Positions 8,392-13,137 of a stretch of 64,000 nucleotides of DNA are shown piece by piece. Position 1 is the stretch's first letter; each line of letters starts with the position of its first letter. Both the position numbers and the translations under genes were made by a program. The notes beneath the pieces are model-generated. The model ran no database searches. It was not told the DNA's origin and worked only from the letters and a program-made list of their open reading frames with translations. The stretch is from Phormidium tenue FACHB-886 (GTDB lineage: Bacteria; Cyanobacteriota; Cyanobacteriia; Elainellales; Elainellaceae): contig NZ_JACXWX010000004.1 in assembly GCF_014764505.1 (NCBI RefSeq), positions 1 to 64,000 on the forward strand. Reading direction: 5' to 3'.

Positions 8392-8426
8392 GTTAAAGCA
8401 CGGATCGATCACTAAATTTTTTGATG

Positions 8427-8453
8427 TGTCACAACCCAAGCGACTACCTCGTC
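8427..8453 (+). promoter_or_regulatory. ECF41-type promoter (TGTCACA-N16-CGTC)
   Basis: TGTCACA (8427-8433), exactly 16 bases, then CGTC (8450-8453). This is the promoter consensus published for ECF41 sigma factors. It lies 36 bases before the AhpD-like gene whose operon encodes an ECF41-type sigma factor, so the sigma factor very likely drives its own operon. The predicted start of transcription near 8460 favours translation from 8490. Confidence 0.8.
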
Positions 8454-8489
8454 TTATAGGTGAACAGATCATTCAACGGGAGGTTCACC

Positions 8490-8975
8490 ATGCAGGCAAG
8501 ACTAGAACAAAACGCCAACCCAGCCGCTTATCGAGCTATGTTGCAGCTAGAACAGTACGTCCGAGGCAGTGGCATCAATCCAACGCTGCTGGAATTGATT
8601 AAAATTCGTGCTTCACAGATAAACGGCTGCGCGTTTTGCATCGATATGCATACCAAAGATGCTAGACTTCACGGTGAAACCGAACAGCGCATCTACGCCC
8701 TCAATGGCTGGCGCGAAACGCCGTTTTTTACTCCTGAAGAACGAGCAACTTTGGCGTTTACCGAAGCCGTGACGCTGATCGCCACCAATCACGTATCTGA
8801 TGCGCTTTACGAAGAAGTGAGCCAGTATTTCTCTCCTGAGCAAATTGCTAATCTGTTGATGGCGATCATCACGATTAACGGCTGGAATCGGATTGCAATA
8901 ACCGCCCGCACTGTTCCTGGCACCTATGAGCCACAGCCCGCTCATCAGAGTTCCCATGCGCTGAGTATGGCGTAA
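8490..8975 (+). CDS. AhpD-like carboxymuconolactone-decarboxylase family protein
   Basis: A 161-residue AhpD-type protein. INGCAFCIDMHTKDAR contains the CxxC redox pair and the downstream His of AhpD-like alkylhydroperoxidases. ALLxxIT-like helices follow (NLLMAIITINGWNRIAI). GGGAGG at 8479-8484 supports the start at 8490; an in-frame GTG at 8460 would sit at the predicted transcription start. CMD proteins are the commonest neighbours of ECF41 sigma factors, and the match to the upstream promoter supports this as the regulated target, probably in peroxide or electrophile stress. Confidence 0.9.
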   Translation: MQARLEQNANPAAYRAMLQLEQYVRGSGINPTLLELIKIRASQINGCAFCIDMHTKDARLHGETEQRIYALNGWRETPFFTPEERATLAFTEAVTLIATNHVSDALYEEVSQYFSPEQIANLLMAIITINGWNRIAITARTVPGTYEPQPAHQSSHALSMA

Positions 8976-8980
8976 GGAAT

Positions 8981-9026
8981 CAGGGAGAGAGTAAACAAAA
9001 CCCTCTCCCTGCGATTAAAGTTTTTT
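8981..9026 (+). promoter_or_regulatory. Intra-operon hairpin
   Basis: CAGGGAGAG (8981-8989) pairs with CTCTCCCTG (9003-9011); a run of six T follows at 9021-9026. The T-run is displaced by about ten bases, so it may attenuate rather than stop transcription into the membrane protein and sigma genes. Confidence 0.45.
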
Positions 9027-9043
9027 GCTCAGGGAGAACGAAG

Positions 9044-9439
9044 ATGCTACTTGCCCGCTATGGAACGATTATTGTAGTTGTCCATACGATCGTGGTTGCA
9101 CTCCACGGTTTAGCACATCAAAAAATTCCTGTTCCTATTTCTCTGGCTCAAAGTCTATTTGTGGATATTGTGATTGTGCTGGCTCCGATAGCTGCCGCGA
9201 TTTTACTTTGGACACCGTTCTACCGCATTGGTTGCTGGCTCTTCTTCGGTGCGATGATCGGAGCGCTTCTATTCGGGATCTATAATCATTTCATAGCAAT
9301 CACACCCGATCACATTTCTCAGATTCCCTTTGAAGGCTGGGGGATGTTGTTTCAGGTTACAGCCATCTTGTTACTCATTACAGAAGGATGCGGGGTTGCT
9401 CTATGGAAATTGAACACAACTCAGCGGCAGATTCTATAA
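9044..9439 (+). CDS. Small four-helix membrane protein
   Basis: A 131-residue integral membrane protein with about four hydrophobic segments (residues 5-25, 33-55, 63-83 and 98-120). No named family is recognised. AGGGAGAACGAAG precedes the ATG. Its end overlaps the start of the sigma-factor gene by 37 bases, so the two are translationally coupled. A membrane protein in this position could act as a sensor or anti-sigma partner, but ECF41 factors are usually controlled by their own C-terminal domain, so this is speculative. Confidence 0.75.
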   Translation: MLLARYGTIIVVVHTIVVALHGLAHQKIPVPISLAQSLFVDIVIVLAPIAAAILLWTPFYRIGCWLFFGAMIGALLFGIYNHFIAITPDHISQIPFEGWGMLFQVTAILLLITEGCGVALWKLNTTQRQIL

Positions 9440-10317
9440 ATTCGCTTGAGGCATTCAATCACCATCGTCGATTGCTGTTTGGCATTGCGTACCGGATGCT
9501 GGGCACTGTGAGCGATGCTGAAGATATGGTGCAAGAAACATTTCTGCGCTGGCAGCAGACACCCAAAGCCAGAGTGCAATCTGCGAAAAACTATTTGGCA
9601 ACCACGATCACGCGCCTCTGTATTGATCATCTGAGGTCTGCACGGGTTCGCCGTGAACAGTATGTCGGACCGTGGCTCCCAGAACCTCTACTGACGCAGC
9701 AAGATCCAATCGCGCAGGTGGAGTTAGCCGACTCGCTCTCAATGGCATTTTTGGTCATGCTGGAACGGCTATCGCCGATCGAGCGAGCCGTATTTCTGTT
9801 GCGCGAGGTGTTTGAGTATGACTATCCTGAGATTGCTCAAATCGTCGGCAAAAGCCCTGAGAACTGTCGGCAGATATTGCGTCGATCGCGCCAACATCTT
9901 GCGACTGAACATCCTCGCTTTCCCGTTTCACCCCAACAGCAAGAACAGATTACAAGCCAATTTCTCGATGCCTCAACCCAGGGCAATCTGCAAGACTTAC
10001 TGACGCTCTTAGCAAAAGATGTCACTTTCTGGTCAGATAGTGGCGGTCAAGTTGCGGCTGCCTTAAAGCCTATACAAGGCGCGATGAAGGTAGCTCGATT
10101 CTTGTTAGCGATTCAGCAAAAATGGCTGCCAGCCGCAAGTGCCCATTTAATCGAAATTAATGAGCGGTCTGGCATCCTCATCCGGAACGGAAGTGACATT
10201 CACAGTGTGATGACGTTTGAAATTGTGGAAGGCTATATTCAGGCTATCTATAGTGTGCGGAATCCAGAGAAACTGAAACGGTTGAGCGAGTTTGTAGAGT
10301 TTAGAGTGAAGGAATAA
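9403..10317 (+). CDS. ECF41-type RNA polymerase sigma factor with SnoaL-like C-terminal domain
   Basis: A 304-residue sigma factor. Region 2 is FNHHRRLLFGIAYRMLGTVSDAEDMVQETFLRW; region 4 is LERLSPIERAVFLLREVFEYDYPEIAQIVGKSPENCRQILRRSRQ. The extra C-terminal part (about residues 185-300) is an NTF2/SnoaL-like domain, the fused regulatory domain of the SigJ/ECF41 group. The usual DGGG signature of the group appears only as SDSGGQ. The start at 9403 gives the best fit; an in-frame ATG at 9388 is possible. The operon begins with an ECF41-type promoter. Confidence 0.92.
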   Translation: MEIEHNSAADSINSLEAFNHHRRLLFGIAYRMLGTVSDAEDMVQETFLRWQQTPKARVQSAKNYLATTITRLCIDHLRSARVRREQYVGPWLPEPLLTQQDPIAQVELADSLSMAFLVMLERLSPIERAVFLLREVFEYDYPEIAQIVGKSPENCRQILRRSRQHLATEHPRFPVSPQQQEQITSQFLDASTQGNLQDLLTLLAKDVTFWSDSGGQVAAALKPIQGAMKVARFLLAIQQKWLPAASAHLIEINERSGILIRNGSDIHSVMTFEIVEGYIQAIYSVRNPEKLKRLSEFVEFRVKE

Positions 10318-10318
10318 G

Positions 10319-10346
10319 TGTCACAACCAAAGAAATAAATGTCACA
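10319..10346 (+). promoter_or_regulatory. Two TGTCACA boxes just after the sigma gene
   Basis: TGTCACA at 10319-10325 and 10340-10346 are 21 bases apart inside the longer direct repeat AATAARTGTCACA. Neither has CGTC after 16 bases; the second has GGTC after 17. They resemble decayed copies of the ECF41 -35 box and face a gene-free spacer (10318-10611). Confidence 0.35.
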
Positions 10347-10431: not shown

Positions 10432-10518
10432 TGTTGCTGATTTCTGGGATAATTTTTAAGTGAGAGGGGCGCGCCGCGCCCCTCTCACTTAAAAATTATC
10501 CCCCTGTTAAGCAATGCC
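10432..10518 (+). repeat. 87-bp palindromic repeat, left copy
   Basis: This copy and the one at 13008-13094 are inverted relative to each other and nearly identical. The core, 10446-10502, is a 57-base near-perfect palindrome containing GTGAGAGGGGCGCG and its complement. The outer bases at the right end correspond to the 5' coding part of the IS630-type transposase that survives beside the other copy, so the repeat is probably one end of that insertion sequence. Confidence 0.7.
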
Positions 10519-12472: not shown

Positions 12473-12835
12473 ATGCTGAAATCAACGAATATTTCAACAA
12501 CCCGCACATCCAATTCGCTAAAATTATTGTATTTGGTCTTAACCGTTGCAGGCTCGATCGCCCCTTGGTTCTGGTTGCTGCAAGATCCATCTGCATTGCT
12601 CTCGCCAACGTTATTCCTGCAACGCGCATTCGCCAATTCTATTGCAACTGCACTAACAACAGATTTGCTAATTTCGGCGATCGCATTCTTCTGCTTTGCC
12701 TGGGTTGAATTAAAGCGATTAAATTGTTCTCGTTTCTGGCTCATTCTGTATATTGGTTTGACCTTTGGAGTTGGGTTATCCTGTTCTTTACCGTTCTTTT
12801 TGTACCGTCGGGCGCAGCTGCTTGAACGTGATTGA
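12473..12835 (+). CDS. DUF2834-type membrane protein
   Basis: A 120-residue membrane protein with about three hydrophobic segments (residues 17-37, 61-80 and 89-112). LYLVLTVAGSIAPWFWLL at the start and the FFLYRRAQ end match the short DUF2834 proteins common in cyanobacteria, of unknown function. It lies 45 bases after the hydrolase on the same strand and may share its transcript. Its 3' end abuts an IS630-type fragment on the other strand. Confidence 0.78.
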   Translation: MLKSTNISTTRTSNSLKLLYLVLTVAGSIAPWFWLLQDPSALLSPTLFLQRAFANSIATALTTDLLISAIAFFCFAWVELKRLNCSRFWLILYIGLTFGVGLSCSLPFFLYRRAQLLERD

Positions 12836-12841
12836 TGAAAC

Positions 12842-12998
12842 TTACCGCCGCTTCATGCGGGGCTAGGCATGACGAGTGACGTCGCCCTCGCTTTTTCGCC
12901 TGCAAGGCTTTCGCCCCTTGTTCAGTGACCGCTTTTGTCCAGTGGTGCAAGGCGGTGCGCGAGACTTGGAAGACCCGAGCTGCTTCTGATTGACTCAT
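12842..12998 (-). mobile_element. IS630-type transposase N-terminal fragment
   Basis: MSQSEAARVFQVSRTALHHW followed by TKAVTEQGAKALQAKKRGRR is the helix-turn-helix start of IS630-family transposases. The frame continues upstream without a stop as LLSNAENG into the adjacent palindromic repeat. After about 52 residues homology ends and the catalytic DDE part is absent, so it is a dead remnant. The remaining open frame runs antisense into the end of the DUF2834 gene and is not counted. Confidence 0.7.
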
Positions 12999-13007
12999 GC
13001 CATTTTC

Positions 13008-13094
13008 GGCATTGCTTAACAGGGGGATGATTTTTAAGTGAGAGGGGCGCTCCGCGCCCCTCTCACTTAAAAATCATCCCAGAAATCAGCAACA
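13008..13094 (-). repeat. 87-bp palindromic repeat, right copy
   Basis: Inverted copy of 10432-10518. The central 57-base palindrome (13024-13080) has 27-base arms and a 3-base centre. Relative to the left copy an A:T pair in the stem has become G:C with both arms changed (GGATAATT against GGATGATT), so base-pairing is conserved. It merges directly into the IS630-type transposase fragment. Confidence 0.7.
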
Positions 13095-13137
13095 CCTAAT
13101 TTAGAGCGATCGCCAGCGTTAGGACATACGGTCTGCT

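Follow-up and report, generated by a model that had tools for sequence, protein, structure and literature searches.

The CMD-MEM-ecf41 operon of Phormidium tenue FACHB-886 very probably constitutes an ECF41 module that regulates itself, has a single target and is gated by the extension of its own sigma factor, with a small membrane protein (MEM) as co-regulated output. Under the proposed mechanism, ECF41-bearing RNA polymerase would read TGTCACA-N16-CGTCTTAT and transcribe the three genes (Table 1), and the sigma factor would boost its own level along with those of a CxxC-containing AhpD-like enzyme and a histidine-bearing membrane protein. The C-terminal extension of the sigma factor would gate its activity, probably via a small ligand, with no separate anti-sigma factor, and MEM would be a co-regulated output, probably a membrane partner of the enzyme, either for redox or for substrate. 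The motif, gene order, family identity, genomic uniqueness and joint conservation are properties of the sequence, and from them we infer transcription, sigma dependence, gating, ligand, substrate and the role of MEM. Coordinates refer to the window, i.e., the whole 64-kb stretch of DNA that was analyzed.

Table 1. Features of the predicted ECF41 module in the window
Feature	Coordinates	Strand	Size	Remarks
-35 element, ECF41 promoter	8427..8433	+		TGTCACA; block shared with L089 starts at its first base
-10 element	8450..8457	+		CGTC with conserved TTAT extension
CMD/AhpD-like gene	8490..8975	+	161 aa	CxxC motif; PF02627, 2e-22; TIGR00778, 1e-19
Intercistronic hairpin, candidate attenuator	8981..9011	+		z -2.57; T run 9 nt past the inner stem
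MEM, membrane protein	9044..9439	+	131 aa	Four predicted helices
MEM 3' end overlapping sigma gene start	9403..9439	+	37 nt	Equal length in five relatives
ECF41 sigma factor	9403..10317	+	304 aa	C-terminal extension

Assignment of the last gene to the ECF41 group, already proposed in a sequence-only reading of this DNA, is based on whole-length profile matches (TIGR02957, 379.6 bits against a cut-off of 323.25; SigJ PRK09636, 339.8 against 271), the WLPEP linker motif, the motifs SDSGGQ (DxGG; usually SDGGG) and NPEKL in the C-terminal extension (about 100 aa in the ECF41 group), the promoter and the COE neighbor. The sigma factor matches Mycobacterium tuberculosis SigJ (PDB 5xe7) over its full length (E 1.4e-47), and the likeness includes the SnoaL-like extension despite the different phylum. 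The name SigJ is also borne by a cyanobacterial developmental sigma factor, which is distinct from the M. tuberculosis protein. No other ECF41 protein in the 8.9-Mb genome scores over the cut-off, and profile searches found no anti-sigma domain among the operon proteins. Elsewhere in the genome, a broken fragment of a second ECF41 C-terminal extension (C79:92832-93080, L009; L043, about 9780-10010), 64% identical and with stops, adjoins apparent nitrate-assimilation genes. The same reading had named a CMD protein as the typical ECF41 neighbor, and the profile matches and CxxC motif of the first gene product bear this out. Its relatives with solved structures are PA0269 and Atu0492, and a ribosome-binding site (GGGAGG) precedes its ATG.

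CMD, MEM and the sigma gene follow one another in one direction, with the sigma gene last. L089, the nearest relative, belongs to another family and encodes a 90% identical sigma factor; its DNA is similar over positions 8427 to 10301, and that of L090 over positions 8426 to 10286. In both cases, similarity spans the promoter up to the inside of the 3' end of the sigma gene and goes no further, and the genes flanking the module differ from those of L089 and L090. These borders and unlike flanks indicate that the promoter and the three genes form a conserved unit. The upstream MarR gene was rejected as a member, as it was not found at related loci. Related operons were also found on plasmids, which fits horizontal spread. 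The sigma factor tree, in which several branches are weakly supported, intermingles the partner types CMD-MEM, epimerase-MEM, epimerase-DoxX, CMD alone and NAD(P)H-dependent oxidoreductases.

Most relatives lack the hairpin between CMD and MEM, and in several of them no more than 15 nt separate the two genes. The hairpin could split or attenuate the operon; as a guess, it would reduce how much MEM and sigma factor is made, thereby weakening the feedback. Downstream of the module, 129 nt past the sigma stop, a 28-bp perfect palindromic hairpin (GGGATAATTTTTAAGTGAGAGGGGCGCG...) lies at 10446-10502; a second copy follows after 2.6 kb (13005-13105), and approximately 20 partial matches are found at other places in the genome. 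These hairpins are a MITE- or REP-like repeat family. A short minus-strand open reading frame beside the second copy (12741-12998) encodes a transposase-type helix-turn-helix domain and is possibly an IS630-like remnant.

Comparative analysis covered 39 ECF41 loci: the present locus was joined by 36 drawn from further genomes of the phylum and 2 from plasmid records. Loci were collected by similarity to the present sigma factor, with ECF41 sought at E values up to 1e-30, a threshold that distant or fragmentary copies may escape. MEM is present at 12 of the 39, most ECF41 operons being without it. The description of MEM as a nonstandard ECF41 partner therefore stands against the published list of COE partners but not for cyanobacteria, where MEM is recurrent. 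At nine loci, MEM lies directly upstream of the sigma gene with an overlapping frame (37 nt in six of them), an arrangement that makes translational coupling likely. MEM is fragmentary at L117 and located downstream of ECF41 at L113. On Chroococcidiopsis sp. CCNUC1 plasmid pB (L121, 6636-7952), an IS701-family transposase separates MEM from the sigma gene, which it splits.

MEM has no credible relative among Pfam, NCBIfam or PDB sequences. Its predicted helices run from residue 2 to residue 130 (AlphaFold model from four sequences; mean pLDDT of 56, i.e., low confidence), and His14, His21, His25 and His82 are invariant among 23 full-length members. Relationship to DoxX/DoxX_2 was ruled out at the profile level (hhalign probability, 0.1%). 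MEM was also rejected as a class I anti-sigma factor, since it has no family match and consists almost entirely of membrane helix, leaving no space for the cytoplasmic N-terminal anti-sigma domain, which averages about 100 aa in that class (PMC7406223).

Among 378 genomes of the class, 11 contain both MEM and ECF41, 12 contain MEM only and 22 contain ECF41 only (p 3e-7, an optimistic value, as the sampled genomes are related and kinship was not corrected for). No promoter motif was found at the 23 MEM loci that are unlinked to ECF41, and in 20 of them MEM lies just behind an NmrA-type epimerase gene or what remains of one. Upstream of three Nostoc-type MEM copies, the DNA aligns with the L032 promoter, with the -35 element mutated to TGTTACA or the -10 element deleted. 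In the epimerase-MEM pairs of Nostoc and relatives (L050-L053 and L122), MEM is 55-61% identical and shares the invariant histidines, but these pairs, unlike the present operon, have neither an adjoining ECF41 gene nor the promoter. MEM thus goes with COE-type enzymes and the promoter with the sigma factor, which argues for MEM as output rather than regulator. Two more MEM genes of P. tenue FACHB-886 also lie behind epimerase genes (L042, 17.6-19.05 kb, on C244; L039, on C208); neither locus has the ECF41 promoter, and the C244 copy is broken by stops.

The sequence-only reading had suggested that MEM could be a new regulator. It would then be a membrane-embedded, histidine-based sensor that holds, releases or tunes the sigma factor and is translationally coupled to it, and this would give a membrane input to a sigma group thought to sense solely via its own C-terminal domain. 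The invariant histidines and the more-than-expected co-occurrence with ECF41 are in line with such a role, which we consider improbable and retain mainly because of the overlap with the sigma frame at nine loci. Against it, MEM persists behind epimerase genes with no ECF41 nearby, the majority of ECF41 operons manage without MEM and retain both promoter and C-terminal motifs, and the 131-aa protein is almost wholly helix in membrane, compared with the size of class I anti-sigma domains. Judged from gene neighborhood alone, MEM is likely part of the output rather than of the switch and is probably a redox-linked membrane protein.

The promoter motif TGTCACA-N16-CGTC is exact at 8427-8453 on the plus strand and agrees with the published ECF41 promoter (PMC3426412), and 36 bases (8454-8489) separate it from the ATG at 8490; motif and distance are as had been claimed. 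It is the sole match in the window, where shuffled sequences lead to an expectation of 0.03. Genome-wide, the bare motif (spacers of 15 to 17) occurs at chance frequency, with five matches versus six for a reversed-pattern control, and the remaining four matches are all within coding sequence. As the bare motif is not rare, its meaning depends on position and conservation. The extended form, TGTCACA-N16-CGTCTTAT, is single in the genome, with the nearest alternatives having at least two mismatches. A wider regulon was rejected, with three sites at two mismatches compared with 10 in the reversed control. The genome-wide motif search therefore led to one operon, with one extended site and one ECF41 gene, in accordance with the earlier view of a self-contained regulon; autoregulation, put forward in the same reading, is supported as a prediction by the motif, its conservation and the sole ECF41.

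The exact motif occurs within 2.5 kb upstream in 32 of the 39 ECF41 loci (0.02 expected from shuffles), and neither the reversed pattern nor the opposite strand gave any match at these loci. In 33 aligned sites, the spacer is always exactly 16, although 15 to 18 was allowed, and the CGTCTTAT extension is conserved. Because TGTCAC served to pick the sites, the selection itself accounts for part of the invariance of these six bases, but not for the conservation of base seven, the spacer length and TTAT. Seven loci lack the exact motif: L116 has TGTC at -10 (and is included among the 33 aligned sites), L113 carries GGTC at -10, L093 starts near a contig end and the sigma genes of L115, L117, L118 and L119 are truncated or broken. 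Across the phylum, the extended motif is found in 7 of 386 genomes, compared with approximately five matches for the reversed control, and the seven include every one of the four same-class genomes that have an ECF41 match. The match in G099 (L055) resembles real sites but was rejected as chance, given that background and the lack of an ECF41 match in that genome.

Although the bare motif occurs at chance level genome-wide and the codirectional MarR gene ends 35 nt upstream, a fortuitous motif, with the operon transcribed from another promoter or through read-through from the MarR gene, is highly improbable, since the motif with fixed spacing is kept in most ECF41 loci, the MarR gene is absent near the operons of relatives, DNA similarity to relatives begins at TGTCACA and a search for a sigma-70-like site before CMD found none. 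Two further TGTCACA sequences are located just past the sigma gene stop (10319-10346), neither with a -10 partner. At the equivalent place, L093 has an intact TGTCACA-N16-CGTCTTAT before an alpha/beta hydrolase gene, and the first TGTCACA past the stop may be the relic of a similar second ECF41 promoter.

The predicted ECF41 module resembles Ecf41Bli-ydfG of Bacillus licheniformis and RSP_0606-RSP_0607 of Rhodobacter sphaeroides (PMC3426412). Common features are the promoter, an upstream CMD gene with CxxC, gene orientation in one direction, the WLPEP linker, the C-terminal extension and a single target operon (here predicted), whereas the extra membrane protein gene, the -10 element extended to CGTCTTAT and the cyanobacterial host distinguish the present operon. 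For the ECF41 proteins of both species, experiments have shown single-operon regulation as well as gating through the extension (PMC3426412), and by analogy the present sigma factor should activate its own operon only and be gated by its extension. DoxX_2 proteins in epimerase-ECF41 operons (L034 and L092) are small membrane proteins in the equivalent operon slot but have no detectable homology to MEM. Within the searched literature that touches both ECF41 and cyanobacteria, the 2012 survey alone centered on ECF41; it included two cyanobacterial proteins and, while noting hypothetical proteins encoded between COE and sigma genes, does not describe MEM (PMC3426412).

In its promoter, gene order and type of sigma factor, the operon is a textbook ECF41 case; what is new is the extended promoter of the cyanobacterial loci, MEM as a recurrent partner and the decay of the promoter at MEM loci without the sigma factor. 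The one-operon rule for ECF41 is extended to a cyanobacterial set of >30 loci, with CGTCTTAT giving a sharper promoter definition. An uncharacterized membrane protein family accompanies both ECF41 and epimerase genes, and operons with and without MEM, together with MEM loci with a decayed promoter, provide a natural comparison for the signal of ECF41 operons.
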